Shown here one piece after another: positions 15,373 to 32,645 of a stretch of DNA of 33,461 bases. The notes beneath the pieces are model-generated. The model was not told where the DNA came from, ran no database searches, and was given only the letters and a program-made list of their open reading frames with translations. The translations under genes and the position numbers were made by a program. This stretch comes from Fimbriiglobus sp. (GTDB taxonomy: Bacteria > Planctomycetota > Planctomycetia > Gemmatales > Gemmataceae). The stretch spans positions 1-33,461 of the forward strand of contig JANXWE010000068.1 in assembly GCA_025351325.1 (NCBI GenBank). Reading direction: 5' to 3'. The first letter of the stretch is position 1. Each line of letters opens with the position of its first letter.

Positions 15373-15684
15373 ATGGATTTGGACGACAAAGTCTGCCTCT
15401 GCTTCCGGATCTCGAAGCGGAAGCTGGTGAACTATTTGCGTCGGGAGCTGCCGCGCGTGCCGAGTCAGCTTTCGGAGTGCGGCGGCGCCGGCACGGGCTG
15501 CGGCTGGTGCATCCCCTTCTTGAAGCAGTTGTTCCGGCAAGAGATGCTCACGGCGGTCGACGGGAGCGTTTCGGAGCTGACGGCGACAGAATATGCCCGC
15601 CTACGAGCCAATTACATCCGCGTGGAAAAAAAGATTCCGCCGCCCGGTGCCGAGCCACTCCCGGACGGAGCGAGTGCGGACTGA
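15373..15684 (+). CDS. BFD-like [2Fe-2S]-binding protein
   Basis: The 103-residue protein carries four cysteines in the pattern of the BFD-like [2Fe-2S] domain: C8 and C10 (VCLCF) and C43 and C46 (GCGWCIPFLKQL), plus C36. The family includes bacterioferritin-associated ferredoxin and domains of nitrite reductase and NifU; the cluster transfers electrons or senses redox or iron. The C-terminus (about 70-103) is charged and outside the domain. No bacterioferritin gene is adjacent, so its partner is unknown. ATG 15373 was chosen because the domain begins right after it, although the ribosome site is weak. It diverges from the channel gene over 88 bp. Confidence 0.82.
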   Translation: MDLDDKVCLCFRISKRKLVNYLRRELPRVPSQLSECGGAGTGCGWCIPFLKQLFRQEMLTAVDGSVSELTATEYARLRANYIRVEKKIPPPGAEPLPDGASAD

Positions 15685-16003
15685 AGATTCGAGCCGGGCC
15701 ACAAACATTTCCGCTACCAGCGTACAAACCTGTAAAGCTCCGATTACGAAATACTCGACTGTCCGAAATCGAGGCGCGGCCCCCGCGATACTGGGGAAAC
15801 TATGCCGATTCTCCGTTTGACGTCCGGCAAAAGTCGATCTAGGTTTCCGGCGTAGATGATCGCTAGCTAGTTCGGTACGGGATCGACACACAACCCAGTT
15901 TCGCTGCGGCCGCCGCAGAGAAATGAACCAAGCCCGGGCACACGGTTGTCGCAGTCGCCGCCGCAAACGAACTCCTGAGCATCGTCGCTACGGAGTAATG
16001 ACC
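15685..16003 (+). promoter_or_regulatory. Upstream region of the pilin genes with candidate promoter
   Basis: No gene is seen in these 319 bases. A candidate sigma-70 promoter has TTGACG at 15817-15822, a 17-base spacer and a poor TAGGTT at 15840-15845, which would give a leader of roughly 150 bases before the first pilin. A short palindrome, CTGCGG-CCG-CCGCAG, lies near 15903-15917. The ribosome site GGAG at 15992-15995 is eight bases from ATG 16004 and only two from ATG 15998, which is why 16004 is preferred as the pilin start. Confidence 0.35.
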
Positions 16004-16192
16004 ATGGTACGCACGGCGGTACGCCGCGCCGTCCATTTTCTCAAACGTGAGGATGGACCGACCGCGGTGGAATACGCCGTCATGCTGGCTCTCATTGTGG
16101 TGGTGTGCTTCGCAGCCATCAGCACAGTCGGACAAAGCACGACGTCGGTTTACGATAACAACGTTTTGAAGTCAGGCTTGAAACCATCGTGA
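16004..16192 (+). CDS. flp: Flp/Fap type IVb pilin, first copy
   Basis: The 62-residue prepilin has a basic leader (MVRTAVRRAVHFLKREDG), a cleavage site after G18, and a mature start PTAVEYAVMLALIVVVC with the glutamate at +5 that is typical of type IVb pilins. The mature protein of about 44 residues ends YDNNVLKSGLKPS. It should be processed by the CpaA peptidase encoded downstream and polymerised by the Tad machine. An in-frame ATG at 15923 would give an atypically long leader. The second pilin, 95 bases downstream, is near-identical through the cleavage site and hydrophobic core but differs in the C-terminal half, so the two may be major and minor subunits. Confidence 0.93.
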   Translation: MVRTAVRRAVHFLKREDGPTAVEYAVMLALIVVVCFAAISTVGQSTTSVYDNNVLKSGLKPS

Positions 16193-16287
16193 CCTTTTCG
16201 GTCGCGGGTCTTTGTACTCGGCACCGGGCACTTTCGCCCAACTGCTGATCGTTCGACTGTTTTTTCACAACTTTTCGAGGCTACACC

Positions 16288-16467
16288 ATGCGTAACTTGA
16301 CCAAGAACATCGTCAAATTCATGAAGCGTGAAGATGGCCCGACGGCCGTCGAATACGCCGTCATGCTCGCCCTCATCGTCGTGGTCTGCATCGCCGCCAT
16401 CACCGCCATCGGCGGTGCGTCGAACCAGACCTTCAGCCAAGTCGGCTCGGCCATCAAGCCTAGCTGA
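16288..16467 (+). CDS. flp: Flp/Fap type IVb pilin, second copy
   Basis: The 59-residue prepilin (MRNLTKNIVKFMKREDG leader, cleavage after G17, mature start PTAVEYAVMLALIVVVC) is short enough to be missed by length-filtered gene finders. The C-terminal half, TAIGGASNQTFSQVGSAIKPS, differs from the first pilin. GAGG seven bases before ATG 16288 is a good ribosome site, stronger in context than that of the first copy. A perfect hairpin terminator lies 29 bases after the stop, so strong pilin expression separate from the assembly genes is likely. I infer this is the major pilin, but the sequence alone cannot decide between the two. Confidence 0.95.
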   Translation: MRNLTKNIVKFMKREDGPTAVEYAVMLALIVVVCIAAITAIGGASNQTFSQVGSAIKPS

Positions 16468-16495
16468 ATCGAGTGGGCCTAGCCCGACCGAACTC

Positions 16496-16530
16496 GAAGC
16501 CGAGCCAATTTTGGCTCGGCTTCTTTCGTT
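16496..16530 (+). terminator. Intrinsic terminator after the second pilin
   Basis: GAAGCCGAGCCAA (16496-16508) pairs perfectly with TTGGCTCGGCTTC (16511-16523), followed by a T-rich stretch TTTCGTTTT. It separates pilin transcription from cpaA, which is typical where pilins are needed in large excess. The inverted sequence could also work on the other strand, but no minus-strand gene ends here. Confidence 0.8.
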
Positions 16531-16601
16531 TTCCCGTTCTAGGGTCAAAGTACCGTCTCGGTGTAAACCCCCTTACCTGCTTCTTCGAGGTCATCCCGCT
16601 C

Positions 16602-17360
16602 ATGGCGAATCCTGTTTTGGCCGCCCCGGCCCCCACCCCAGTGGACGATTCCTTGGGAATCGACCGCGCGTTCATCGTCTCGATGGCCCGGATCCCGCTC
16701 CTCGCGGCCGTTTGGGTCGGCCTCGCCTGGGTCGCTCAGATCGCCTGGGCCCAGTTCGGATCCACCGAATACGGCAACCTCGGCCCCATCATCGTGCTCG
16801 CCTGCGGCATGGTGCTCGCGGCGGCGATCGATGGCTATGCCTTCAAAGTGCCGAACTGGCTCACGCTCTCGCTGGTCGTCAGCGGTTGGTACCTCGGCAT
16901 TCTCAACGATCTCGGGTACGACTGGGTTCCCTGCGTCGGCGGCTTCGGCTCCGCGTTGCTGTGTACGGCCCTCGGTTTCATCTTGCTCTTCCCGATGCTC
17001 TTCATTCAGGGCATGGGCCAGGGTGATGTGAAAATGCAAATGGGCTTCGGTGCTTGGATCGGCGCACTCTTCGGCCTAGGTGTCGGTGCGTCCGTCATCA
17101 TCTGGGCGTTCTGCCTCGGAGCCATCGTCGGCGGCGTCTTCGGCATCGTGATGATGTTCGCCCGTCGGCAGTTCGGGAAGAACGCCGAAAACTTCCGCGC
17201 GATTATGGGCGATCTGCAAACGCTCGTCACCGACGGTCCCACCAAAGCGGCCGCCCGTGCGAACACCCGCCGCCCGGCTTGGATCCGATTGCCATACGGG
17301 GTTCCCCTCTGCATCGGTTTCCTCGGCTACCTGTGGTACCGCATCATCTTGAGTGCATAA
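16602..17360 (+). CDS. cpaA: Tad prepilin peptidase CpaA/TadV (A24 aspartyl protease)
   Basis: The 252-residue membrane protein has the two A24 aspartates: D77 in AIDGYAFKVPNWLTL and D142 in GMGQGDVKMQMGFG (the GxGD-type motif). About six hydrophobic segments surround them. The N-methyltransferase domain and cysteines of PilD-type enzymes are lacking, as in CpaA/TadV. It cuts prepilin leaders at the inner membrane and so serves both Flp pilins just upstream. Compared with short CpaA proteins of about 170 residues, it has a longer N-terminus and a C-terminal extension with a terminal membrane helix. GAGG eleven bases before ATG 16602 is a slightly distant ribosome site. A hairpin terminator follows the stop. 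Confidence 0.92.
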   Translation: MANPVLAAPAPTPVDDSLGIDRAFIVSMARIPLLAAVWVGLAWVAQIAWAQFGSTEYGNLGPIIVLACGMVLAAAIDGYAFKVPNWLTLSLVVSGWYLGILNDLGYDWVPCVGGFGSALLCTALGFILLFPMLFIQGMGQGDVKMQMGFGAWIGALFGLGVGASVIIWAFCLGAIVGGVFGIVMMFARRQFGKNAENFRAIMGDLQTLVTDGPTKAAARANTRRPAWIRLPYGVPLCIGFLGYLWYRIILSA

Positions 17361-17387
17361 TTCGAATTATTTCAAAATAACTTTTCA

Positions 17388-17420
17388 CGCCCCTGCCAAT
17401 ACGGCGGGGGCGTTGTCTTT
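17388..17420 (+). terminator. Intrinsic terminator after cpaA
   Basis: CGCCCCTGCC (17388-17397) pairs with GGCGGGGGCG (17403-17412), with one T-G pair and a five-base loop, followed by TTGTCTTT. It closes the peptidase unit and implies a separate promoter for cpaB. Confidence 0.75.
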
Positions 17421-17772
17421 GGGATACTGGTGAAACTCCACTGGATCGATACGACCAGAAAAGCTGAAGGATTCGGAAGGGATCGGTCGAAAGAGTAAGT
17501 GTGTCAATCTCCCTTACCAAATGTAAACCCGGCGGATCAAGAAAAAGCGTTTCGATGCAGACTTCTTGCGAAATGCGAACTTCGTACTAGGGTTGGTTGC
17601 TCAATTGATCGGCGCGCCTCAAAAATGCGTCGTTCCCTTCTGAGTCATCACCCTGCGGAATTCGCCGGCCCGCCCGCAGGAACGGTCTCCACGCCGAAGC
17701 ACTCCGCAGCTCCGCTTCGGAATGGTGGTGATCGGGCCGCAGTCGATTTTTTTCTCCGGGGGGATGGCACCA
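17421..17772 (+). promoter_or_regulatory. Long non-coding leader before cpaB
   Basis: This stretch of about 350 bases between a terminator and cpaB has no supported gene, so it should contain the promoter and 5' leader of the secretion genes. No confident -35/-10 pair was found. A CCGAAGC...GCTTCGG hairpin (about 17694-17720) and a G-run directly before the start codon could control translation. The rest shows nothing recognisable. Confidence 0.4.
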
Positions 17773-19053
17773 GTGAAACAGAAGAACATTGTCCTTGTGG
17801 TCGTGGCGGTGGTGTGCGGCTTGATCGCCGCGTTCCTCACCACGATGGGGGCGAAAGGCAAGAGGCAAGACGTCGACACGGTTCAAGTCCCGGTCGCCAT
17901 CGCCGACTTGCCCGTCGGGACGAGACTCAAAGCCGACGATTTGGAAAAGTACGTGGTCATGAAAGCGTTGCCGAAAGATGCGGTGCCCCCGAATTCCGTG
18001 GAGCAGACCGACTTCTTGAAAGACAAACGCTTGACCCGGACGGTTCGCCAAGGCGAATCCTTCGGCCAGACCGATGTGACGACGAACGTGTTTCTCAACC
18101 CGCCGCCGGGCCACAGCGTGATGTCGGTCACCATGTCGACCGTCGAAGCGGCCAGCGGGTTCATCGGGCCGGGCGCCCACGTGGACATCATCGCTTCGGT
18201 GCTGTTGAAGAAGTCTCAGAAATGGGTCGTCTTCCCGTTGTTTCTCGACATGCTCGTGCTGGCCGTGAACTCGGATTCGGCCCCGTCGCAAGTTCCCGGC
18301 GGTGCGACACCGAACGTCGGGATGGTTTCACTCGCGGTGACGGCCGAGCAGCAACTCTTGCTGCAAGGTGCGATCTCGCGGGGCGCCACCATGCGGATGG
18401 GTCTGCGGCACCCGGACAACCCGTCGGTTCACCGCGTGATGAAAGCGGACGAAATTTGGGACATCCTCTCCGACAAGATCGAAGAGAAAGACAAAGAACA
18501 GCTCGCCCCGCCGGCACCGACAGCACCGGTGGTGGAAATGGTGAAAGTGAAAGTGCCGACGGTCGACTTGGTCGCCGGAACGCTGATCACGGACGATTTG
18601 ATCGCCAAGAGTTTCAAGGATGCGGAGTATCCACTGTCCCTCGTGCCAGAGACCGCAGTGAAAGAGTTGAAGAGCTACGCCGCGAATGGGGATTATCTGT
18701 TGAAGGATCTGCCGGCGAATTATTTCGTTCCGAAGACGTTCTTCGGGCCGAAGCCGAAGGAAGAGGCGAAACAGGCGAAAGTTGCACCCGACGGGACGGG
18801 TGCGACGCCGAAGAACGGCGAAGTCGAACTGTTGAAACCCGTGCCACCGAAGCCAGTTTATGTCGAAGTGATTTTGCAGACGCCCAAAGGAGTGGTGAAG
18901 TACCGCTACCAGAAAATGCCGAACGGCGACCACAAGTATGTCGGAGTGGTTCGTCCGGAATCGGAAGACGACGATTCGAAGTCGAATGATGGTAAGGGTG
19001 AGAAGAAGCCGGAAGAATCGGGCAGCTCGAAAGGCCCATTCACGGCACCGTGA
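17773..19053 (+). CDS. cpaB: Tad pilus assembly protein CpaB/RcpC with apparent second SAF domain
   Basis: The 426-residue protein has an N-terminal membrane anchor (KNIVLVVVAVVCGLIAAFL), a SAF domain at about 37-105 (VPVAIADLPVGTRLKADDL), and the CpaB C-terminal region at about 112-225 (MSVTMSTVEAASGFIGPGAH, VDII). Residues 257-320 (VPTVDLVAGTLITDDLIAKS) repeat the SAF pattern, which the short CpaB proteins lack. The tail is charged low complexity. CpaB sits in the periplasm and works with the secretin. The start is GTG 17773, nine bases after a G-run; ATG 17764 and an earlier GTG near 17722 are in frame but too close to, or before, that site. Confidence 0.9.
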   Translation: MKQKNIVLVVVAVVCGLIAAFLTTMGAKGKRQDVDTVQVPVAIADLPVGTRLKADDLEKYVVMKALPKDAVPPNSVEQTDFLKDKRLTRTVRQGESFGQTDVTTNVFLNPPPGHSVMSVTMSTVEAASGFIGPGAHVDIIASVLLKKSQKWVVFPLFLDMLVLAVNSDSAPSQVPGGATPNVGMVSLAVTAEQQLLLQGAISRGATMRMGLRHPDNPSVHRVMKADEIWDILSDKIEEKDKEQLAPPAPTAPVVEMVKVKVPTVDLVAGTLITDDLIAKSFKDAEYPLSLVPETAVKELKSYAANGDYLLKDLPANYFVPKTFFGPKPKEEAKQAKVAPDGTGATPKNGEVELLKPVPPKPVYVEVILQTPKGVVKYRYQKMPNGDHKYVGVVRPESEDDDSKSNDGKGEKKPEESGSSKGPFTAP

Positions 19054-19172
19054 AGTCGGTCGGATGATCGGTTCTCGGAAGGATTTCGAGAGCCGAACAG
19101 TTCCCCGGCCGTGGGGAATGGGACGAATTGTTTCCGGACTGGGGATCGGCCTCGGCTCGGTATTACGAACAC

Positions 19173-19193
19173 GGCAGGTCTTTCCGACCTGCC
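19173..19193 (+). other. Leader hairpin before the secretin gene
   Basis: GGCAGGTC (19173-19180) and GACCTGCC (19186-19193) form a perfect 8-bp stem with a five-base loop, ending ten bases before the GGAGG ribosome site of the secretin gene. No T-run follows, so it is not a standard terminator. It could stabilise the mRNA end after processing between cpaB and cpaC, or be a dispersed small palindrome. Confidence 0.5.
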
Positions 19194-19216
19194 AGACTTG
19201 TGGGGAGGGTGAACGG

Positions 19217-20809
19217 ATGCACCTGATCAGTAATCGTCGCCGCCGCTGGATGGCGAGTTTGGCCGTTCTCACCGGGTTGACCGGTAGCACCGCCCTGGGC
19301 CAACAACCGAACAAACCGCCCGCAGGCGGAATTGAAGCGAAAGTTGAACCGAAGAGTGGAGCTTTGTTGGTGCCACTCGGTGGCCTGGCCAAGTTCGACC
19401 CGAAAACGAACAAGCTCATCACGGAAATCACGCTCAGCAACGGCGACGTCGTCGACGCGAAGCCGATCGCTCCGGAACTCAAGAAAGTGGATCTGGTTGG
19501 GAAGCTCGGAGGAGCGACCCAAATGACCCTGACCTTCGAAGATCGTTCGAAGGCCGTCTACACCGTGGTCGTGCAGCCGGATTACGAACAACTGAAGTTC
19601 GTGATCAAGCAAGCGGTGCCCACGTCGAACGTGGAAATCATCCCCGGCGTCGGCAACGTGATTGTCATCAGCGGGTCGGTCAGCCAGCCCGGCGATGCCG
19701 ACGTCATTGTCCGGATCGCGAGTAGTGCAGTCGGTGGCAATGCCGCCAACGTCATCAACGCGATCCAAGTCGGTGGCACGCAGCAGATCACGATCGAAGT
19801 GACTGTCGCACAAGTCGACCGGACGCTGCTCCGCGAGCGCGGCTTCTCGTTCGGGGCCAGCGGCAAGAGTTTCGGGATCAGCTCGGTACTCGGTGGCCTC
19901 GCGAGTTCATCGGCCACCTTGGGCAGTCTTCCCGCTTTCACCACGGGGGCGAATGCAAACATCGTGGCCGGGATCGTGCCCGGGCAGTTCACTGGGGCTT
20001 TGCGAGCACTGAAGACAGAAGGCGTCGCGAAGTTCCTCTCGGAACCGAAGATCACGACCACGACAGGTCGGGCGGCGTTCTTCCGGGCCGGGGGTCTCCA
20101 AGCGGTGCTCAGCCCATCGTCGGGGATCAACGGCCCGGGGGTGACCCTGACGCCGGTGGGTACCGAAGTCGAAGTGATCCCCGTGATCACCGCCGACAAT
20201 CGGATTTACCTCGAGATCAACCCGCGGATTTCTTCGGTGAACAACGGTCGCGGGATCACGACGGCGTTCGGCTTCACGCCCGGTTTCAACGAGACGCAAG
20301 CCCGTTCCACGGTGACGCTGCAATCGGGTCAGACGTTCGCGATCGGTGGCTTGCTCGAAACGACGGTGCAATCCAACGCCCAGAAAGTCCCGTACTTGGG
20401 TGACTTGCCCTTGTTGAGTGCCGCCTTCAGCAGTGTGACTCACGACGAACGGGAGACCGAATTGTTGATCTTGGTGACCCCGCGGTTGGTCGAAGCGTTG
20501 AACCCGGATCAGGTTCCCCGGCGAGTTCCCGGTAAAGAAACGCGCAGCCCGGACGATTATGAGCTATTCGTTGAAACGCTGCTCGAAGCGCCACGCGGTG
20601 CTCGGAAGATCTGGAACGGCAAAACATACGTTCCCGCTTACCGCCACGCTCAGAACAGTGGACAAGGGTTGTCCGCCAACTCGGGCCTGACCGCCACAGT
20701 GGGTAGCCCGGCTTGTCCAGCGGTGGCTCCGATCATCACGGAGTCCGCGGTTCCGCCGACCTTGCCGCCGACGGTTCCGATGCCTCTGCCGGTGCTCGAA
20801 GGCAAGTGA
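19217..20809 (+). CDS. cpaC: Tad secretin CpaC/RcpA
   Basis: The 530-residue protein has a signal peptide (RRRRWMASLAVLTGLTGSTALG), a pilus-assembly N-terminal domain, a BON-like segment (VEIIPGVGNVIVISGSVSQ) near 140-160, and the secretin domain at about 235-445. Secretin landmarks are VAKFLSEPKITTTTGR, VTLTPVGTEVEVIPVI, and VPYLGDLPLLSAAF followed by ETELLILVTPRLVEAL. The Pro-rich C-terminus (PPTLPPTVPMPLPV) is beyond the family core. Secretins form the gated outer-membrane ring through which the Flp pilus exits; its presence implies a diderm envelope. The start at ATG 19217 has GGAGG eight bases upstream. It sits 163 bases after cpaB with a hairpin in between, and a terminator-like hairpin follows. 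Confidence 0.95.
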   Translation: MHLISNRRRRWMASLAVLTGLTGSTALGQQPNKPPAGGIEAKVEPKSGALLVPLGGLAKFDPKTNKLITEITLSNGDVVDAKPIAPELKKVDLVGKLGGATQMTLTFEDRSKAVYTVVVQPDYEQLKFVIKQAVPTSNVEIIPGVGNVIVISGSVSQPGDADVIVRIASSAVGGNAANVINAIQVGGTQQITIEVTVAQVDRTLLRERGFSFGASGKSFGISSVLGGLASSSATLGSLPAFTTGANANIVAGIVPGQFTGALRALKTEGVAKFLSEPKITTTTGRAAFFRAGGLQAVLSPSSGINGPGVTLTPVGTEVEVIPVITADNRIYLEINPRISSVNNGRGITTAFGFTPGFNETQARSTVTLQSGQTFAIGGLLETTVQSNAQKVPYLGDLPLLSAAFSSVTHDERETELLILVTPRLVEALNPDQVPRRVPGKETRSPDDYELFVETLLEAPRGARKIWNGKTYVPAYRHAQNSGQGLSANSGLTATVGSPACPAVAPIITESAVPPTLPPTVPMPLPVLEGK

Positions 20810-20874: not shown

Positions 20875-20910
20875 ACAACCTGACGAACACCCCCGACTTC
20901 GGTGATTGAT

Positions 20911-22134
20911 ATGCAAAGAGTCGCCATCGTTGATCCTTCGGAAGCGTCGCGCGAATCGCTCCGCACCCTGCTGCTCGGCGTAGATTTCGTCTGGCTCGAA
21001 GCCGAGTGCGCCCGCTACGAGTACTTTTTCGACGTCATCGAGCAACAGGGCGAGATGCCCGATCTGGCCATCGTCGCGCTCGATGCCGACAAGGCCAAAG
21101 CCCTGTACATGATCGGCGAGTTGTCGATCAAGTATCCGAAGTTGGCCATCCTCACGATCAGCCAAGATCACCAAGCCCTTCTGCAATCGCTCCAACGCGG
21201 TGCCAAGTACTTCCTCACCCATCCGGTCGGCTTGGAAGACATGCTCGCCGTACTCCGGCGAGCCTTGGGAGAGTCCAGCGGCTCGATCGGCGACCAACCC
21301 AGCAACGGCGGGATGGTGCGCCAGCAGGGCGCCAAGCAGATGATCGCCGTGCTCGGTTCGCGGGGCGGCGTCGGCACCACCAGCATTTGCGTGAACCTCG
21401 CCGCCACGCTGTCGACCGATCCGGACAACACCGTCGCACTGGTGGATCTCGACTTGGCCCTCGGCGACGCGGACATCGCCATGGAAGTCAACGGGATGGA
21501 CAACATCAGCATCGCCGACTTGGCCCGCAACATCGAACGTCTCGACATGAACTTCCTGCGGCGGGCTTTGGTGCGCCACGAAGGGACCGGATTGTCGATC
21601 CTCCGGCACCCGATGGAAATTCAAGAAATCGGTGTGCTGCACGAGGGGCACGTCGAGCGGATTCTCAACCTCTTGAAGATGAGCTATTCGCACTTGGTGA
21701 TCGACTTGAGCAAGTCGCTGCGGCCGACCGACATGATGGCCCTGCGGATGGCCGACACCATCTTGCTGACGGCCCAACTCGAACTCAGCAGCCTGCGGAA
21801 CGTCGTGCGGTTGATCCACCTGCTCGGCAGCGAAGACCTCGCCGACAAAGTCCGCATCGTCATCAACCGCGTGGGGTCGGACACGGTCGAAGAAGGCATC
21901 AGCATGAAGAAGGCGGAAGAGGTGATCGGCAAGCCGATCACCTGGCAGATCCCGTACGACCCGAAGGCCCTGATCGCCGCCCGCATCGCCGGGGAACCCC
22001 TGGTTCGCCACAACCCGAAAAGCCGGGTGCAACACGCCATCGTCGGCTTGGCCCAAATCCTGGCCGGCAAACCCGCAGCACCGCTCGTGGAAGCCAAGAG
22101 CAAGGCGAAATGGAACCCGTTCGGTCGCAAGTAA
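20911..22134 (+). CDS. cpaE: Tad localisation ATPase TadZ/CpaE
   Basis: The 407-residue protein has an N-terminal receiver-like domain (about 1-120) and a MinD/ParA-type ATPase domain from about 143. The Walker A is GSRGGVGTTS (149-158), with Arg in place of the first Lys of the deviant motif, as in many TadZ proteins. VALVDLDLALGDADIAME is the second nucleotide-binding segment. The receiver has HP where active receivers have KP (FLTHPVG, H104), so it is probably not phosphorylated in the usual way. TadZ places the Tad machine at the cell pole or envelope. ATG 20911 was preferred over GTG 20902. The tail (KWNPFGRK) is basic. It is followed closely by tadA. Confidence 0.92.
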   Translation: MQRVAIVDPSEASRESLRTLLLGVDFVWLEAECARYEYFFDVIEQQGEMPDLAIVALDADKAKALYMIGELSIKYPKLAILTISQDHQALLQSLQRGAKYFLTHPVGLEDMLAVLRRALGESSGSIGDQPSNGGMVRQQGAKQMIAVLGSRGGVGTTSICVNLAATLSTDPDNTVALVDLDLALGDADIAMEVNGMDNISIADLARNIERLDMNFLRRALVRHEGTGLSILRHPMEIQEIGVLHEGHVERILNLLKMSYSHLVIDLSKSLRPTDMMALRMADTILLTAQLELSSLRNVVRLIHLLGSEDLADKVRIVINRVGSDTVEEGISMKKAEEVIGKPITWQIPYDPKALIAARIAGEPLVRHNPKSRVQHAIVGLAQILAGKPAAPLVEAKSKAKWNPFGRK

Positions 22135-22181
22135 GTGATCGCCAGTGAACGCACCCGGAATTGACCTCAAGGAACTCGGAT

Positions 22182-23573
22182 ATGTCGCGGCTGCAACAAG
22201 GAATCTCGAAGCTCAACAACCTCAGCAACCAGGGGAGCAACACCGGGCTGTCGCGGTTGTCCAGCCCGAGCTTCGGGGGGTCGAGCAGTAGCGGGGGCAA
22301 GAATTTTGAAGAGCTGAAACGGCAGATCCACTCGAAGCTCGTCGAGCGGCTCGATCTGTCCCGCGTCAAGGATCTCGCCAGCGACGCCATGCGACGGGAC
22401 ATCCGCCGCGCCATCGAACACCTGTGCGACACCGAGAACCCGCTCCTCAACCGGATCGAACGCGAAAAGCTGATCGAAGAAATCCTCGACGAAACGCTCG
22501 GGTTCGGCCCGCTCGAACCGCTGCTGAAGGATCCGACCGTCAGCGAAATCATGGTCAACGGCCCCAAGAAGATTTACGTCGAGCGCCGGGGCAAGATCGA
22601 ACGCTCCGAAGTCGTCTTCCGCGACAATGACCACTTGCTGCAGATCATCGACCGCATCGTGTCCAAAGTTGGGCGCCGCGTCGATGAAACCAGCCCGCTC
22701 TGCGATGCTCGCTTACCGGACGGCTCCCGGGTTAACGCGGTCATCCCGCCGATCGCACTCGATGGAGCCAGCCTCAGCATCCGGCGTTTCGGTGCCCAGC
22801 CGCTGAAACTCGAAGACTTGTTGAACTACAAAGCATTCACGCCAGAAATGGCCATGCTCTTGGAAGGGGCCATCAAAGCCCGCATGAACGTGCTGATCTC
22901 CGGCGGTACCGGCTCGGGTAAAACCACCCTCCTCAACACGCTCTCGGCCTTCATCCCCGGCGACGAACGTCTCGTGACCATCGAAGACGCCGCCGAACTG
23001 CAACTGCAGCAGGATCACATCGTGCGGCTCGAAACGCGGCCGCCGAACATCGAAGGCAAAGGCACCGTGAGCTGTCGTGACCTTGTGAAGAACGCCCTGC
23101 GGATGCGGCCCGACCGGATCATCGTGGGGGAGTGCCGGGGGGCGGAAGCCCTCGACATGCTCCAGGCCATGAACACCGGTCACGCCGGGAGCATGACGAC
23201 GCTGCACGCCAACACCCCGCGCGACGGCCTCGCCCGCTTGGAAACGATGATCATGATGGGCGGTACCGAGTTGCCCATCAAAGCCATGCGGCAGCAGATC
23301 GCCTCCGCCGTCGACTTGATCATCCAAGTGAACCGGTTGCAAGGCGGCCCGCGCAAGATGTGCAGCATCACGGAGGTGCTGAACATGGAACAAGACATCA
23401 TCATCATGCAGGAAATCTTCCGGTTCCGGCAGGTCGGCGTCGATCAAAACGGCCGGGCCTTCGGCCAGTTCGAAGCGACGGGCGTCCGCCCGACCTTCGT
23501 GCCGCGGCTCGAGCAAAAAGGGATCAAACTCCCGTCGAATATGTTCACGGAACGAGTTCTGGCCCGCGACTGA
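22182..23573 (+). CDS. tadA: Tad pilus assembly/secretion ATPase TadA/CpaF
   Basis: The 463-residue protein is a GspE/VirB11-type hexameric ATPase that drives pilus assembly at the inner membrane. It shows Walker A GGTGSGKT at 241-248, the Asp box [12 protein letters not shown] near 264-275, Walker [13 protein letters not shown] at 309-320, and the His box [12 protein letters not shown] at 333-344. All catalytic motifs look intact. The first 45 residues are Ser/Gly-rich and vary between family members. AAGGA eight bases before ATG 22182 decides the start over the in-frame TTG at 22161. It sits 47 bases after tadZ, with tadB 37 bases after it. Confidence 0.97.
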
Positions 23574-23610
23574 GTCCCGAGATTCCCCCTACTTCTTCGA
23601 GTCGTGCAAC

Positions 23611-24570
23611 ATGAGTCCTCTGTTATTCGCCTTGGTCATCGGCGGGCTGGTCGTGGGGATGGTCCTCGCCCTGGCGTTCGCCCTCACCGGCTCCAAAGAA
23701 GGCCGGGCCTCGGTGCGCCTCGACGTGCTCGTGGGCCGCAACAACCGGAAAGATTCCTCGGCCGACATGCTCCTGAAGCAGGCCCTGCAGGAAGTCGACA
23801 AAAAGAACTTGCTCGACAAGATCACCCCGAAAGTCCTCAACCTGCAAAAGATGATCGAGCAGGCCGACGCCAACGTGAAACCGAGTGCCTTGGTCGGCGT
23901 CGGTCTCGCCGCCGCGTTCGTCGGTGGCCTCGCCTCCGCCTGGATGGTCAACGTCTACGTGGCCCCCGTGGTGGCATTGGTCTGCCTGTCGGCGCCGTTC
24001 ACCTGGCTCTTCTGGAAACGCAAGAGCCGCTTGAACAAGTTCGCCAACCAGTTGCCCGAGTCGATGGAACTGGTCGCCCGGGCCTTGCGGGCCGGGCACT
24101 CCCTCGCCGCCGGCCTGCACGTCGTCGCCGAAGAAATGCCGCAGCCGATCTGCAAGGAATTCGGCCGGGTTTACGAAGAACAGAACCTCGGCATCACCCT
24201 CGACGAAGCCCTGAAGGGGATGTGCGAGCGGGTGCCGAACTTGGACTTGAAGTTCTTCATCACCAGCGTGGCGATCCAACGGCAGACCGGGGGCGATCTC
24301 GCAGAAATCCTCGACCGCATCGGCTACGTCATCCGCGAGCGGATCAAAATTCTCGGCCAGGTGAAAGCGTTGACGGCGGAAGGGCGGTTGTCGGGGATCG
24401 TGCTCGTCGCCCTGCCGATCGGCCTCTTCTTCCTCATGCTCTGGATGAAGCCGGACTACATCGAAGCCCTCTGGAAAGACCCCATGGGTGTCAAAATGTC
24501 GATCGGGGCGATCTTCCTGATGCTCATCGGCACCTACTCGATCAAGAAGATCATCGACATCAAAGTGTAA
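23611..24570 (+). CDS. tadB: Tad inner-membrane platform protein TadB
   Basis: The 319-residue protein has one N-terminal hydrophobic segment, two central ones (about 90-140), a type II secretion F (T2SSF) domain at about 150-280 (LPESMELVARALRAGHSLAAGL; GGDLAEILDRIGYVIRER), and C-terminal membrane helices near 265-315. This is the TadB arrangement. It forms, with TadC, the platform that TadA acts on. Its closest partner is encoded 86 bases downstream. The ribosome site before ATG 23611 is weak (TTCGAG). Confidence 0.93.
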   Translation: MSPLLFALVIGGLVVGMVLALAFALTGSKEGRASVRLDVLVGRNNRKDSSADMLLKQALQEVDKKNLLDKITPKVLNLQKMIEQADANVKPSALVGVGLAAAFVGGLASAWMVNVYVAPVVALVCLSAPFTWLFWKRKSRLNKFANQLPESMELVARALRAGHSLAAGLHVVAEEMPQPICKEFGRVYEEQNLGITLDEALKGMCERVPNLDLKFFITSVAIQRQTGGDLAEILDRIGYVIRERIKILGQVKALTAEGRLSGIVLVALPIGLFFLMLWMKPDYIEALWKDPMGVKMSIGAIFLMLIGTYSIKKIIDIKV

Positions 24571-24656
24571 ATCGCCGCGGCGGCCCCTCGACCCGAGCGC
24601 GCCGTCGACCCCCTCGATCAACGGACACCGCTTCTAAGCACCCTGGAGACACCCCC

Positions 24657-25619
24657 GTGGAACTGTTCGCGTTTTTATCCGCGGATGAGCTGGCACCGAT
24701 TTTCGTCTTCGCCGCCATCATGATCGGAACTTTTTGGCTCCTGCAGTTGATCTCGAATCGCAACAGTCAGGCCGACGACCGGCTCGACCGAATCGGCCGG
24801 CCACGCTCCCTGGTCGATCTCGAATTGTCGCAGATGGAATCGCGGCAGCGGTTCTCCGGGCTGAAAGACGCCTTCTCGAACCTCGGGGCGTCGATGCAGC
24901 CCCAGTCGGATCTGGAAAAAAACTCACTTCGTGTCAAGTTGGCCAACGCCGGCTTCCGGAGTCAGACGGCGCCGATGGTCTACCAAGGCCTCCGGCTCGC
25001 GTCGCTGGTCGCATTCTTGCTGCCCGCCCTCCTAATCTGTTTAGTCGCGCAAGGTTTCACACTGGCTGCGATGTGGAAAATCGGATTAGCTGGGTGTGTT
25101 GGGTTCTATTTGCCGATGATAGCTTTGAAGCTGCTCGTGAACGATCGCCAGCAGCAGATCTTCTTGACGCTGCCCGACGCGCTCGACCTTTTGGTGGTGT
25201 GCGTGGAGTCCGGCCTCGGCCTGGATGCGGGACTGCGAAAAGTGACCGACGAGATGAAAGATCACGCCAAGACGATCTGCGAAGAATTGGCCTTGGCGAA
25301 CCTGCAGCTGCAAATGGGTCGACCGCGCCGGGAAGTGCTGCACGACTTGGGTGTGCGAACCGGGGTCGACGACGTGAAGAGCCTCGCGGCGATTCTCATT
25401 CAGGCGGATCGATTCGGGGCGAGTATCGCCCAAGCCTTGCGGGTGCAATCCGACGCGATGCGAACGCGTCGCCGGCAGATTGCCGAAGAAAAAGCGGCGA
25501 AGACGGCCGTCAAGCTGATCTTCCCACTGGTACTGTTCATCTTCCCGGCAATCTTCGTGGTGCTGGTTGGGCCTGCGGCCATCCTCATCCAGAAGAACTT
25601 GCTGTCGAAGATGGGTTGA
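24657..25619 (+). CDS. tadC: Tad inner-membrane platform protein TadC
   Basis: The 320-residue protein is the second T2SSF-domain platform subunit. The N-terminal helix (about 12-35) is followed by a soluble segment, two hydrophobic helices (about 110-160), the T2SSF core with LPDALDLLVVCVESGLGLDA and DRFGASIAQALRVQSDAMR, and a C-terminal helix (LIFPLVLFIFPAIFVVLVG). EKAAKTAVKLIFPL before the last helix is typical of TadC. The GTG start at 24657 has GGAG eight bases upstream; the frame extends far upstream but only antisense-like composition lies there. Confidence 0.93.
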   Translation: MELFAFLSADELAPIFVFAAIMIGTFWLLQLISNRNSQADDRLDRIGRPRSLVDLELSQMESRQRFSGLKDAFSNLGASMQPQSDLEKNSLRVKLANAGFRSQTAPMVYQGLRLASLVAFLLPALLICLVAQGFTLAAMWKIGLAGCVGFYLPMIALKLLVNDRQQQIFLTLPDALDLLVVCVESGLGLDAGLRKVTDEMKDHAKTICEELALANLQLQMGRPRREVLHDLGVRTGVDDVKSLAAILIQADRFGASIAQALRVQSDAMRTRRRQIAEEKAAKTAVKLIFPLVLFIFPAIFVVLVGPAAILIQKNLLSKMG

Positions 25620-26363: not shown

Positions 26364-26407
26364 CGAAGTCGGCGACTTCGGCGGAGTGCGCGGGCACTCC
26401 GTTTTTT
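26364..26407 (+). terminator. Strong intrinsic terminator after the OmpA-like lipoprotein gene
   Basis: CGGAGTGC (26382-26389) and GCACTCCG (26394-26401) form a perfect 8-bp stem with a four-base loop, followed by six Ts. A second perfect hairpin, CGAAGTC-GGC-GACTTCG (26364-26380), lies immediately before it. This tandem arrangement ends the TadZ-A-B-C-lipoprotein unit, so the three genes downstream likely have their own promoter or depend on read-through. Confidence 0.88.
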
Positions 26408-26439: not shown

Positions 26440-26649
26440 ATGATTCGGAACTCGATCGCCGCACTGTTGACCATCGCCGTACTCGCAGGCCCCGCTGCCG
26501 CGGCACCGTTCGCCGAACAGAGTTACATGAACGGGTTCGTCGAACATTGGAAGTCCACCATCGGCAAACAGAACACCATCGTCGTGGGTGTGCTGTTCGT
26601 CGGGGCCTTGGGGATTTTCATCATCACCCGCGGGAAAAAGTTGAAGTGA
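26440..26649 (+). CDS. Small membrane protein of the Tad locus
   Basis: The 69-residue product has a signal-like N-terminus (about 1-22, ending in AAAAP), a short polar stretch (FAEQSYMNGFVEHWKSTIGK) and a second hydrophobic helix at about 46-63, ending RGKKLK. If the signal is cleaved, the mature protein is about 47 residues with a short periplasmic part and one membrane helix. AGAGGA lies before ATG 26440. It is sandwiched between the lipoprotein terminator and the AAA+ gene. It has no prepilin cleavage motif (no G followed by a hydrophobic start with E5), so it is not a pilin. Function is unknown; a membrane adaptor for the AAA+ ATPase is speculative. Confidence 0.75.
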   Translation: MIRNSIAALLTIAVLAGPAAAAPFAEQSYMNGFVEHWKSTIGKQNTIVVGVLFVGALGIFIITRGKKLK

Positions 26650-26734
26650 GACTTTCTTGCCGGCCCCGGCCCCGGATGTGAACTAGGCTTCGATGTGATC
26701 CGTCGCCTTTCGCCTCCTCGCCGGTGGGTTTCTC

Positions 26735-28081
26735 ATGGCTGTGCTGTCTCGCCCGGTAGTCGATTGGGATACCAACCCGGCTCCCGAAGCTCCGATTTCG
26801 CCGGAATCGATCAAAGAATCCGGGCTGACGTCTTCGTTCCTCGCCGACATGTTGGTGCGCACGATCTACACGCGCGGCCCGCAAATCGGCCGAGATCTCG
26901 CCCAAGTGCTCTGCTTGCCGTTCAAAATCATCCGCGAGCCGCTCAAGCACCTCAAAGAAGAAAAGCACATCCAAGTGGACGGTGGCGACCTCGTCGGTGA
27001 AGTCAGCTACCGCTATAGTTTGACGGATCGCGGCCGGAGCCACGCCCAAGATCTGATGAAACAATGCGCTTACGTCGGGCCGGCCCCGGTGCCGCTCGAA
27101 GATTACGTCGAACAGTGTTACCGCCAAACTGTGACCGGCCTCAGCTGCTACCCGGAAGTCCTCCGGGCGCCCTTCCGTCACTTGGTCATCAAAGACGATC
27201 TTTTCAACGCCATCGGCCCGGCCATCATCAGCGGTCGGTCGGTGTTCATCTACGGCCCTCCCGGGAACGGCAAGACCGCCATCGCCCGCTCCATCGGCGA
27301 GTACATGAACTCGGTCGGCGGGTCGATTTTTATCCCCTACGCTTTCCTCGCCGACGGGAACGTCGTCACCGTGTACGACCCGTCGCTCCACGTCGTCGAC
27401 GACACCCCCAGTGAGTTCGGCGACGAAGGCGACGCCGTGGTGCGGCGCCTGCTCAGCGACGGTTCGCACGATCAGCGCTGGGTCAAAATCCGCCGCCCGG
27501 TCATCGTGGTCGGTGGGGAACTCACCCTGAGCATGCTCGACCTCCGGTTCAACTCGGAAGCCAACTTCTACCAAGCGCCCATTCACTTCAAAGCCAACGG
27601 CGGCGTCTTCCTCATCGACGACTTCGGCCGCCAGATCGTCAGCCCGAAGGAATTGTTGAACCGCTGGATTCTCCCCCTCGAAGACCGCCACGACTTCCTC
27701 ACGGTCTCCAACGGCAAGAAGTTCCAGGTGCCGTTCGAGCAGCTCATCATCTTCAGCACGAACTTGGATCCGAAAGATCTGGTCGACGACGCGTTCTTGC
27801 GCCGGATTCGGCACAAGGTCTGCATCACCGCCCCGACCCGAGACGTCTACGAAAAGATCTTCGGTTCGGTCTGCAAGCGGCTCGACATGAACTTCAACGC
27901 CGAGTCCGTGGAATACTTGTACGAACGCTACTACAACCGCGGGCGGACGCCCCGCGCCAGTGATTGTCGAGATTTATTGGAAACGGTTCAGTCCATTTGC
28001 CGATACAGACGGCAACCCGTGCATTTGACGCGCGATTTGATGGTGGAAGCGTCGGCGAGTTTCATCGCCGAGTTCAAGTGA
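26735..28081 (+). CDS. AAA+ ATPase with N-terminal winged-helix domain, Tad locus
   Basis: The 448-residue protein has an N-terminal winged-helix-like region (about 35-110: IGRDLAQVLCLPFKIIREPL, YSLTDRGRSHAQDLM) and an AAA+ module from about 150. Walker A is GPPGNGKT (174-181), Walker B VFLIDD (291-296), sensor 1 STN (341-343) and a likely arginine finger RRIRHKV (356-362). The GAFTGA motif of sigma-54 activators is absent. It is soluble, with no membrane helix. Core Tad systems have no such ATPase, so it is an accessory factor: possible roles are regulation, remodelling or energising. It is followed 51 bases later by the TadD-like gene. The ribosome site before ATG 26735 is weak. Confidence 0.85.
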   Translation: MAVLSRPVVDWDTNPAPEAPISPESIKESGLTSSFLADMLVRTIYTRGPQIGRDLAQVLCLPFKIIREPLKHLKEEKHIQVDGGDLVGEVSYRYSLTDRGRSHAQDLMKQCAYVGPAPVPLEDYVEQCYRQTVTGLSCYPEVLRAPFRHLVIKDDLFNAIGPAIISGRSVFIYGPPGNGKTAIARSIGEYMNSVGGSIFIPYAFLADGNVVTVYDPSLHVVDDTPSEFGDEGDAVVRRLLSDGSHDQRWVKIRRPVIVVGGELTLSMLDLRFNSEANFYQAPIHFKANGGVFLIDDFGRQIVSPKELLNRWILPLEDRHDFLTVSNGKKFQVPFEQLIIFSTNLDPKDLVDDAFLRRIRHKVCITAPTRDVYEKIFGSVCKRLDMNFNAESVEYLYERYYNRGRTPRASDCRDLLETVQSICRYRRQPVHLTRDLMVEASASFIAEFK

Positions 28082-28132
28082 TCGTCCCTCGCACGGGGAT
28101 CGGATCCTGTCGACTCCTCAGAGGGATGACCC

Positions 28133-28990
28133 ATGGATGGGCGCCTGCTTCAGTTGGTTCTGGTGGCGACCTTGACGGTCGGTGCGGTCGGTTGTCGGAC
28201 CGTCAAAGACTCCCATTTGCCCGATGCGACGTTGCCCAAATCGGGCGAGCACGCCAGTTTCATGGGTAAGCCGAGCACGCAGAAGTTCGGCCCGCCCAAG
28301 GAAGAGGTCGTCACGCATGCCCCGCGTGGCAAACCCGGGCAACCGTTGAAACCCGAGACACTGGCCGTCTGGGCCGACAACGAAGTCGAAGCCGCATTCA
28401 TGGAAGAGAAGACCGCCGTGGAACGCGACGCCCTCGTCGACTCCGCACGCCAGACGTATCAAAAAGCCCTCAAACAAGACCCGAAGTGCACGGCCGCACT
28501 TTCGGGATTGGCCCGTCTCTATTCCAAACTCGGCGAACGCGAACGGGCGGCCCAGGTCTACCAAGAAGCTCTGCGGCAGAGCCCGAAGAATCACGAGCTG
28601 GCGTTCCGGATGGCGAGCATGTACGCGAAAGCCGAAGAATGGACGCCGGCTTGCGAAGCCTGCAAACTGGCGATCAGCATCGATCCCGAAAACCGCATCT
28701 ACCACAAAACACACGGCTACTGCGCCGCGCGCGCCGGCCAGTGGGACGTCGCCTTCGACACCTTGATGCGCGTGATGCCCGAGGCGGAAGCCCGTTACTT
28801 CCTCGGCCGCGTGCTCATCGATTCGGATCGCGTCGGCGACGGTCGCCAGCAACTCGAAATGGCCATGAAGATTGATCCGCAGCACGTGAGTTCGTCGGAA
28901 TTGCTCGCCGAACTCAACGCTTCGGCGCAACCTTCCGGACTCTCCCCGCAGCCCGCACCGATTCAGCAAGCCGGCAGCTTGCAGCGCTAG
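28133..28990 (+). CDS. tadD: TPR lipoprotein, TadD-like
   Basis: The 285-residue protein has a signal peptide with a lipobox-like TVGAVGC (C21) and TPR repeats at about 100-265 (SARQTYQKALKQDPKCTAAL; GERERAAQVYQEALRQSPKN; EWTPACEACKLAISIDPENR). TadD is the outer-membrane TPR lipoprotein of Tad systems and acts as a pilotin or assembly factor for the secretin. The Pro/Gln-rich tail (SPQPAPIQQ) lies outside the repeats. GAGGG lies a few bases before ATG 28133. It is the last recognisable gene of the Tad locus; the next gene is convergent. Confidence 0.85.
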   Translation: MDGRLLQLVLVATLTVGAVGCRTVKDSHLPDATLPKSGEHASFMGKPSTQKFGPPKEEVVTHAPRGKPGQPLKPETLAVWADNEVEAAFMEEKTAVERDALVDSARQTYQKALKQDPKCTAALSGLARLYSKLGERERAAQVYQEALRQSPKNHELAFRMASMYAKAEEWTPACEACKLAISIDPENRIYHKTHGYCAARAGQWDVAFDTLMRVMPEAEARYFLGRVLIDSDRVGDGRQQLEMAMKIDPQHVSSSELLAELNASAQPSGLSPQPAPIQQAGSLQR

Positions 28991-28995
28991 GCCGA

Positions 28996-31900
28996 CTACT
29001 TCACTCCGGTGGCCGCAATCGGAGTGAGTCCGACGGTGCCATCGGAGTGGGCTTGAAGTAATTGATCGGAACCAAACCGGATCGCGGCGATTTCGGAAGT
29101 GGGGCGATCCGCTTCCGTTTCTTCGACTGCCAGTCCAGTTTTTGAATTCAAGACCTGAACCAATCCGGATTGATACGAAACGAGCACTCGATCTCCGTCG
29201 CGTGCGCAACCGAGCAGTTCCCCGAAATTCGGACTCGGCGCCCGGACGACCCACTCCGGTTTGTCATGGCTCAGCTTCAAGCAGACCAGCGATTCCTTCT
29301 TGACCGAATAGACCAGTCCCGGCCCGTCGCCACCTTCCAGCAATAGGAGCTGTTGAGTGACGGCGCCTTCGGGAATCGGCCCTTTTGCATTGCCTCTCCA
29401 AGTGCGGATCGGGTCGCGCAGCGCTTTCGTGCGATCGAAAAGACACACGGTGCCCGCGTCGGTTCCGGTGGCCACGAATGTCCTCTCCCCAGCTTCGATC
29501 CAGACTGCTGGGAGGCTGATCTTACCCCGGGCCTCCCACGGGCCGGCGAGCCGCGCGGCTTCCTCTTTGTCGGCGGGCCAACTGTAGAGGCTGACTTCGG
29601 CATTCCCATCCGACGCGAGGTACGAGCCGACCCCGGCCCCCGAAAGATGGCAGGTCGTAGGGCCGCGAATCGTACTCCCGCGCCAGACGCTTCCCGTCTT
29701 CAACGCCGTGTCGGCGATGTCGACCCGGTAGACGTATCCGTTGGCCAGGGGTACCAGCAATTGCGATCCGAACGCCAGCGGTACCCCCGCGAGTTGGTCG
29801 ACCAACGGCACGGCGGTGATCCCGACACTTTTACCATCGGTGAATTTCTGCAACTTCAATTTCGTTCCGTCGGCTGCGGTTGCAAGTAAGAGCATCCAGA
29901 CGTCGTGGCCATCGGCCGACACGACGACGCGGGCCGGGCCAGTCGCCGCTTCAGTCGGAGGGGTGACGGTCTCGGTTTGAAACACAGGCTCTTGATCCGG
30001 TGCCGAACTGTTCCGGACACGGTAGACGCCGGCGAACCCATCGACCAAGAGATACTCCTTGTTGGCCAGGGGGATCGGCAAATGGATCGCAATCGCCCCG
30101 AGTTGGCGTTCCCAGGCGGTCACGCCTGTTTCGAGATCGAAGGCCATCATCCGCACGGCCCCGCCCACGCTCGGACGGTAAGTCACAAACGCACGGTTCA
30201 GGGCCGGTCGGACTTGCGACCGGGCGAGCGGTTCCCCGAGTAATTTGGCATCACCGCGCGGCATCAGTCGGTAGCCCCCCAACCCGTCGATGGCCACTTT
30301 CAACCGCACCAGTCGATGGCCGAGGAGCACCCACACCGATTCTTCGTCTTGGGCGATCACTTGCGACCGGCAGACTTGCTCTTGTTCCTTCGCCGGCGGC
30401 TGGCCCGGCAACGTGAACAAACCCGCATCGGCGTTGCCGGCCTGATTCACACCGAGCGCCATGAAGACCCCCGCATCGGTCGAGACGCACACACGCTCGC
30501 CGTCCGAAAGTGGCGCGAACCAATTCCAACCGTTCACGCGGGTTTCGGCAATGGCATTGGCGTTGATCGGCGTATCGCCTTCGGATTGGAGTTTGCTCAG
30601 CTGCTCGATCGCCGGGAGCGGGAAGCTCCGGAGCTTCATCGCCGCCGGGGTATCCCCTTCGCAGAGGGTCATGCGTGTGGGCGACCCGGCTTCGCCGCTG
30701 CTCGTGAGCATCGGTTCGACTCGCAGGGAGTCCTTCGCGTGATTCGTGGCGAAGCTCCGCACGCAGGTCAGCGGCTCTTTGCGGTTGTCGGCATCCACGC
30801 GGCCCCACTCGATCACAAAGACGCGCCGAGCATCACCGGGGATGACGAGGAAACCATGATCAGCATGAAGGCCGGGAAGTACTGCCAAGCCACCCCCGAT
30901 GGGCTGACGCAACGCCAGACTGCCGTACTGTTCGCCCGTGACCACGTCCAGATGCACGACCGTGCCGAGGGAATCTTGCAGCGGCACGAACAGTTGATTG
31001 CCGATCAACGCGGGTTGGCCCAGGCACGGACTCGCCAGCGTTTGGTGCCAGATGGCTTCACCGGTCCGTGTCCGCCGGGCCGTGATCGCCGATTTACCGT
31101 CCGTGGTCGAAGGGAGGAGAACCCAGTCAATGGCTCCATCGGCGAGGACGACGCGCAACGGTAAGTCGACCGTCTTCGGATCGGCGCTCGTCGAGTGAAG
31201 TTTGCGACCCCAGAGCAAGTTGCCCGTGTGGGCATCGAGCGCGTAATAGACCCCGTAGGCCAGCCCGAAGACGGTGTCGTTCGTCGCGTCGGTACCCGCC
31301 TTCGGCTCTGGTGACCCCGCAATCGCTGGGGCGACGAACGCCAGGGGCGGTTCCGGGGGTGCGGCCGTGGCCGGTCGGCGGTCGGGCACGAACTTCACCA
31401 GCGTCCGCAGATTCGTCCGGGCTTGCGCCGCCAGAGACTTGGCTTCGTCGTCCTTCTCGAGACCGGCTTTCTTGATCGTCTGCTCGAACTCGGCGATCCG
31501 TTCATCGGTCGGTTCCACCGCCAGATTTCGATACGGGGCCAGCACCGCCAGCCGCGAACGCTCCTTGAAAATCTCCCCGGTCGTGGCGTCGAACTGTTCG
31601 CGCACTTTGTCCGATGGCATCCCGCTGCCCCGGTGGCGTTCCAACTGCGGCAGCAGTTCCCGGCCTAGTTGCACCGATTTCTCGGCGGAGTCCAGCTCGG
31701 GTAATTTCGACCGATCTTTGCGAAACTCCTTGATGTGATCGCCGGCGTTGTCATTGAACACCGCGGCGAGCTTCTGACCCGCTTGCACGATATCGGTGCC
31801 GAAGCCGGTGTCGGGCAAGGCGAACGGCGATTCCCCATACACGCTGAGGAACTCGCGCAACGATTGCAGCGGCGCCGTCGGATTCTCACGTGCGGCCACG

Positions 31901-32607: not shown

Positions 32608-32645
32608 AGTCGACTCCCGCCCGTGGTGAAACATCCTACAAACGG

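Follow-up and report, generated by a model that had tools for sequence, protein, structure and literature searches.

The window analysed here, positions 1 to 33,461 of contig JANXWE010000068.1 of Fimbriiglobus sp., holds a complete Tad (sticky, type IVc) pilus locus with three further genes behind it, the middle one encoding a 448-residue AAA+ ATPase. The AAA+ motifs of this ATPase are intact, and a winged-helix fold is predicted for its N-terminus. We found that it belongs to a protein family that is very probably linked to Tad pili: members are repeatedly placed in Tad operons in several phyla, and the family co-occurs with the motor ATPase TadA at the genome level and co-varies with the motor proteins. 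With relatives inside the Tad operons of several phyla, the protein thus probably assists the pilus motor, as a component not listed so far, and is less likely to regulate genes locally. On balance we favour the reading that it is an optional cytoplasmic AAA+ remodeller on the motor side of the Tad machine, where it would dock via its winged helix. More tentatively, the family may provide Tad pili and related type IV filaments of several phyla with a further, previously unlisted nucleoside triphosphatase (NTPase), which would remodel the TadA/TadB/TadZ motor complex and so set the extension, retraction or turnover of the pilus.

Family members lie in Tad operons of several phyla

Members of the family lie within Tad operons or adjoin them in proteobacteria (gamma, beta, alpha and delta), Acidobacteria and Planctomycetes. 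The gene order takes at least four forms: tadV-AAA-cpaB, tadC-AAA, tadC-ompA-AAA-tadD and a convergent one. On annotated plasmid records the AAA gene directly follows tadC in Rhizobium, lies between the prepilin peptidase gene (tadV) and cpaB in Burkholderia and Paraburkholderia, and is convergent to tadC in Salipiger. tblastn on unannotated records (Sinorhizobium, Ensifer, Burkholderia stagnalis, Photobacterium and Pseudorhodobacter) likewise revealed Tad-linked members, directly after tadC in Sinorhizobium and Ensifer, just before cpaB in Photobacterium and ~2 kb behind tadC in Pseudorhodobacter. When GTDB genomes were scanned with a diverse alignment, >570 relatives emerged, of which the best 80 were kept; these were ranked by similarity to a Photobacterium protein, so that the 47 of the 80 with one or more Tad core genes in the flank, and the 46 with two or more, do not give an unbiased rate. 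Tad-linked genera and groups included Vibrio, Pseudomonas, Halomonas, Zobellella, Massilia, Duganella, Janthinobacterium, Methylophilaceae (Methylotenera) and Acidobacteria. On a tree of 130 members, which came from a quick search with several weakly supported deep forks and in which the separate cassettes of family f2 (below) were scored as Tad-linked, 5 switches between linkage to Tad and its absence were enough. An earlier note on this DNA had proposed that the AAA+ protein is an accessory not counted among Tad components; operon context and genome scans bear this out across phyla, with the family in or next to Tad loci in independent lineages, as is expected of an accessory component.

Within the window's class, 219 of 248 genomes carry at least one family member. 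A tree of 41 planctomycete members separated clade A (22 rows, including the window; support 100/99) from the rest, which we call clade B. In families f1, f94, f96 and f97 the clade A gene lies behind TadC and OmpA, and Gemmatales-type loci keep the order TadA-TadB-TadC-OmpA-AAA-TadD (at one locus, L057, matches were limited to the small open reading frame (ORF), AAA and TadD). Members of clade A in family f2 instead form a separate OmpA-AAA-TadD cassette, with TadA-TadB-TadC elsewhere in the genome. Clade B is widespread in Planctomycetia with no Tad genes nearby. The genome from which the window comes, a 5.1 Mb draft of family f1 (taxon labels of coded families, such as Gemmatales-like for f1, are inferred), itself holds a second copy of 552 residues (G000:C300:26026-27312; L002, L032), which is 43% identical, has an extra N-terminal segment, belongs to clade B and likewise has no Tad genes nearby. 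The earlier note had named occurrence mostly away from Tad loci as one observation that would speak against its idea. The outcome was mixed. Clade B lies away from Tad genes; of the 22 tree loci of clade A, nearly all are Tad loci or hold the OmpA-AAA-TadD cassette, and clade A is also present in four genomes that lack TadA and TadC.

The AAA+ protein co-occurs and co-varies with the Tad motor

Of the 248 class genomes, 212 have TadA together with an AAA gene, whatever its clade, and 12 have neither, with 17 and 7 discordant genomes (Fisher p 2e-8, from counts made by hand and with phylogeny ignored). In family f1, a strong TadA match (E at most 1e-200) was found in 51 of 53 genomes with clade A and in 2 of 8 without it, and in both of the latter the contig appears to end before or just inside the expected AAA position. 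In G386 and G406, where TadA is present and AAA is not detectable, the contig ends 2.6 and 3.5 kb from TadA on the side where AAA would be expected; as TadA and AAA are 3.2 kb apart in the window, the missing AAA is probably an assembly break.

We compared pairwise protein distances in the 53 loci that contain all genes. Distances of AAA correlated most closely with those of TadA (0.86), TadB (0.85) and TadZ (0.85), followed by TadC (0.78), the secretin (0.71) and CpaB (0.66), while the motor proteins correlated at 0.87-0.92 among themselves and the secretin with CpaB at 0.85. The difference between TadA and the secretin persisted in subsamples (0.10 to 0.22). Furthermore, partial correlations of AAA with TadA, TadB and TadZ given the secretin and CpaB were 0.68-0.70, whereas those with the secretin and CpaB vanished given TadA and TadB. 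Such correlations are inflated by the common species tree, and the contrast between modules is their informative part. Thus, from the contrast between the motor proteins on the one hand and the secretin and CpaB on the other, AAA behaves like a member of the cytoplasmic motor module.

These distances bear on the possibility that the ATPase is an assembly or quality-control factor for envelope parts, namely the OmpA-like lipoprotein, TadD and the secretin, its genetic neighbours in Planctomycetes. OmpA-AAA-TadD indeed stays joined even where the Tad core is elsewhere in the genome, as in the f2 loci. However, the AAA protein has no signal peptide, so that as a cytoplasmic enzyme it could act on exported proteins only before their export; its distance correlation is weakest with the secretin and CpaB, and in Proteobacteria the gene adjoins tadV, cpaB or tadC instead. 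We therefore consider an envelope factor improbable, slightly more so than a regulator or a general AAA+ enzyme, both weighed below.

Motifs and predicted structure of the 448-residue protein

The protein consists of a winged helix (residues ~33-110), a linker with the pattern Y-x-G-P-A-P-V (113-119) and an AAA+ domain (~140-448). The Walker motifs were intact and GAFTGA was lacking, just as the earlier note had read them: Walker A is GPPGNGKT (174-181) and Walker B LIDDFGRQ (~292-296, then FGRQ), followed by sensor 1 (STN, 341-343) and an arginine finger (R356/R357), all within an AAA+ fold as in AAA+ ATPases. Walker A and Walker B (DD[FL]GRQ) are each present in 130/130 family members, sensor 1 in 126/130 and the arginine finger in 129/130; GAFTGA, by which sigma-54 activators (bacterial enhancer-binding proteins) are recognised, occurs in 0/130. 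An AlphaFold2 model of the protein reached a predicted local distance difference test score (pLDDT) of 85.8 and a predicted template modelling score of 0.81. In this model the N-terminus forms three helices (33-47, 52-59, 63-75), two wing strands (79-84, 92-96) and a further helix (98-110), mostly at pLDDT >90. The winged helix is thus a confidently predicted real domain, and the doubt that it might not be one did not materialise.

A winged helix followed by an AAA+ domain could be a transcription regulator, with the winged helix on a promoter and the AAA+ ring as a sensor of pilus state by which the expression of Tad genes is set; the earlier note had offered such coupling to gene expression. 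The predicted winged helix, which has the fold of MarR/ArsR-type DNA-binding winged helices, weak profile matches to SufR, TrmB and Rrf2 and a wing of the type LTDxGR, is in line with this, as is an AAA+ fold near those of the sigma-54 activators FleQ, FlrC and NtrC1 (Z 14 to 15). However, position 67 of the recognition helix is acidic (E or D) in 81% of the 130 members (the window protein itself has R67), the domain has a net charge of ~0, and in Tad-linked members the net charge of helix 3 averages -0.4. The acidic position and the near-neutral domain, where a basic recognition helix would be expected for DNA binding, tend to argue against such binding in the family, though less clearly for the window protein with its R67. 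With GAFTGA missing throughout the family and the AAA distances tracking the motor proteins, a regulator is unlikely, and it was demoted from first choice after the recognition-helix and GAFTGA checks. The composition of the domain in the family would favour a winged helix that docks on protein over one that binds DNA.

A second hint of docking comes from members at five Desulfobacterota-type loci (Desulfuromonas, Geobacteraceae and related; L124, L137, L141, L154 and L155), which carry an extra N-terminal domain; Desulfuromonas (L137) has two tandem copies. A profile of six such domains matched the N-domains of MshE (5htl, E 4.5e-14) and PilB in a PDB profile search; Pfam reported no MshEN in them at E up to 0.1. 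The first c-di-GMP (cyclic di-GMP)-contact arginine of the MshEN motif is apparently not retained in most of these domains (alignment A3), and the MshEN-type domain would therefore be likelier to serve in docking than in c-di-GMP sensing.

No curated Pfam or NCBIfam model captures the AAA+ family, the best scores being below cut-off. Among the weak matches are the IetA models of PADLOC and IteA of NCBIfam, which would suit an ATPase of anti-phage or other defence placed close to the pilus, since pili commonly serve phages as receptors. However, in the planctomycete protein these matches cover essentially the P-loop, at bit scores of 17 to 29 (27.1 for the IetA-type) against an NCBIfam cut-off of 510, no defence partner gene was seen among the annotated neighbours, and no relative of the protein was found in phages. 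A defence function is thus very improbable.

A proposed role on the cytoplasmic side of the motor

Tad pilus extension and retraction are described (PMC12019362) as run by a single bifunctional motor ATPase, CpaF/TadA. In the remodeller role that we favour, the AAA+ protein would be a further NTPase beside this motor and the ParA-like TadZ. It would assemble into a ring, and its N-terminal winged helix may attach it to the TadA/TadB/TadC/TadZ complex from the cytoplasmic side, with the added MshEN domain as a docking part in some Desulfobacterota relatives. The putative ring could then remodel or switch a motor-side component, for instance by resetting the motor or the platform between assembly and retraction. 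If so, an optional AAA+ partner would add a further ATP-using factor to the Tad machines of tractable Vibrio, Pseudomonas, Burkholderia, Massilia and Rhizobium, and how a single motor is reset or regulated would become directly testable by deletion. Moreover, members with an MshEN domain would be expected to show docking as in PilB/MshE motors, and a family so far labelled generically, as only 'AAA family ATPase' or 'ATP-binding protein' in genome annotations, would gain a name.

Several observations weigh against such a role, in addition to the similarity ranking of the 80 relatives and the shared species tree mentioned above. Many members are orphans, found in Myxococcota, Chloroflexota, Cyanobacteria, Desulfobacterota-type genomes, Acidobacteria and Planctomycetes, and no conserved neighbours were seen around them beyond close kin. 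The Tad locus of G205 (L166) reads TadC-OmpA-TadD without AAA, and clade A was not seen in many TadA-bearing Planctomycetia families. The AAA+ protein is thus optional and dispensable, and the family is not present in essentially all Tad systems, as a core component would be. Finally, clade A persists without TadA or TadC in four genomes of one genus (G425, G453, G459 and G477, of which G477 consists of a single contig), and the OmpA-like and TadD neighbours of the ATPase were not detected at the loci of three of them (L169, L170 and L171, in G477, G425 and G459). In these genomes either Tad was lost and the ATPase kept, or the ATPase has a second role. G456 keeps the OmpA-AAA-TadD cassette with no Tad-type TadA match and has a TadC-like stretch with in-frame stops (G456:C6:30043-30639), possibly a decaying Tad core, which would fit recent loss of Tad.

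The orphans raise the alternative of a general AAA+ enzyme that has a separate task in the cell and was repeatedly recruited to the neighbourhood of Tad genes, the orphans representing its original function. Orphan clades in Planctomycetes, Myxococcota, Chloroflexota, Cyanobacteria and Desulfobacterota speak for it, as does retention of the gene in the four genomes without TadA and TadC. However, TadA is encoded in 22 of the 25 orphan-bearing genomes tested (~E 1e-128 or better), the state changes on the 130-member tree are few, and the MshEN-type fusion points to type IV filament machinery. We regard a general enzyme as hardly more probable than an envelope factor, and no more so than a regulator.

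Comparison with known systems

The locus has the Flp, TadV, CpaB, secretin, TadZ, TadA, TadB, TadC and TadD components of the MacSyFinder model of the Tad/type IVc system (Denise et al. 2019, PMC6668835). The accessories named in the parts of that paper that were read are TadD, RcpB and RcpC; no AAA+ ATPase with a winged helix is named there, which agrees with the earlier note's remark that the Tad core includes no such protein. Titles and abstracts of the open-access literature searched, a search outside which most subscription journals lie, contained no description of a Tad-linked AAA+ or winged-helix ATPase.

The closest folds to the model were Pyrococcus furiosus Q8U0N8, Lon, sigma-54 activators and NorQ. 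Q8U0N8 (PDB 8p49), an uncharacterised archaeal AAA+ protein, was the best match (Z 17.3 over 288 residues) and reached into the winged-helix part, but at 14% identity and a root-mean-square deviation (rmsd) of 4.5; we found no paper on it, and its function might inform the family. FleQ, FlrC and NtrC1 share the AAA+ fold (rmsd ~2.7-3.5 over ~220 residues), whereas the 448-residue protein is only ~16% identical to them and differs in its missing GAFTGA, its N-terminal winged helix and its conserved DD.GRQ Walker B. NorQ/MoxR-type activases share the fold as well (NorQ Z 14.4, rmsd 2.7 over 217 residues), and bpMoxR was the best Pfam match, but at 21.3 bits, below the cut-off of 27. No VWA partner gene was seen beside AAA, although no systematic search for one was made; the VWA protein TadG was dropped as a MoxR-style partner, being expected to face the periplasm. 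With PilB/MshE/GspE ATPases, some Desulfobacterota members share the MshEN-type N-terminal domain, but the ATPase domain of the family is AAA+ and not T2SSE, and the window protein has no MshEN part. In agreement with this, the 448-residue protein gave no PF00437 (T2SSE) match at E up to 1, whereas TadA scores 7.5e-67.

The three genes behind the Tad core and their neighbours

On the plus strand, the locus runs from two Flp-like pilin ORFs through TadV, CpaB, the secretin, TadZ, TadA, TadB, TadC and an OmpA-like lipoprotein to the 69-residue, 448-residue and 285-residue proteins (Table 1). The last three ORFs lie where, and in the order in which, the earlier note had placed them.

Table 1. Features of the Tad locus in the window and the evidence for each.
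Feature	Position	Strand	Evidence
AAA+ ATPase, 448 residues	26735..28081	+	ORF; family alignments A1, A2; AlphaFold2 model; motifs in 130 members; Tad linkage
TadD-type tetratricopeptide repeat (TPR) lipoprotein, 285 residues	28133..28990	+	TPR_2 5e-16 and TPR_19 3e-15 (above cut-off); Cys after N-terminal hydrophobic stretch; homologues behind AAA in clade A loci
OmpA-like lipoprotein, 229 residues	25666..26355	+	Named by eye; homologous ORFs precede AAA in Tad loci and in separate OmpA-AAA-TadD cassettes
Small membrane protein, 69 residues	26440..26649	+	Signal peptide, one further membrane span, basic C-terminal tail RGKKLK
Tandem hairpins then TTTTTT (terminator-like), between OmpA-like gene and small ORF	26365..26403	+	Folding
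TadZ, TadA, TadB, TadC (Tad motor module)	20902..25619	+	Pfam AAA_31, T2SSE, T2SSF, T2SSF; distance correlations with AAA+
Rest of Tad core	16003..20809	+	Flp-like pilin ORFs ~16003-16192 and ~16288-16467; TadV prepilin peptidase within 16473-17360; CpaB 17722-19053; secretin ends 20809

The three genes had been proposed to form a module set apart from the core by a tandem terminator, with the 69-residue protein as a co-conserved partner of the ATPase. The terminator-like element is real (-26.8 kcal/mol, z -2.0 against shuffles) but local: its second hairpin is kept in the sister species (L052) and was not found in seven other Gemmatales-type relatives examined. An element common to sister species only does not define a module. 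Counterparts of the 69-residue protein, with a signal peptide or N-terminal hydrophobic stretch, a membrane span and a basic tail, precede AAA in L052-L060, that is, in families f1 and f94; L061-L063, L067 and the f2 loci yielded no counterpart. It is thus a lineage-specific addition and not a required partner. A VirB2/TrbC identity for this protein was rejected, the match scoring 18.5 bits under a cut-off of 27.9. With the small protein confined to f1 and f94 and the terminator to the sister species, we abandoned the three genes as a single fixed module.

The OmpA-like and TadD-type lipoproteins are more conserved flanks of AAA than the 69-residue protein, and OmpA-AAA-TadD is the more conserved unit. 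The OmpA-like lipoprotein, for which there was no Pfam match, is the conserved upstream partner of AAA in Planctomycetes; it sits ahead of the terminator, outside the interval that had been taken for the module. The identification of the third gene as TadD-type holds, in that its product is a TPR lipoprotein with profiles above cut-off, adjoins the Tad core and has homologues at the same position in clade A loci; no TadD-specific model matched it.

Directly upstream of the Flp pilins, a small ORF (15373-15684) has a Cys pattern (CLC ... CGGAGTGCGWC) that by eye is BFD-type [2Fe-2S]-like. The 538-residue protein encoded at 1672-3288 begins with sigma-70 regions 2 and 4, and no Pfam model matches its other ~350 residues; it is an ECF (extracytoplasmic function)-like sigma factor with a long C-terminal extension. 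On the minus strand, convergent to tadD, lies the gene for a 1212-residue protein with a zinc ribbon and a PQQ-type beta-propeller (28996-32634), homologues of which are also found near the Tad locus in L053 and L054.

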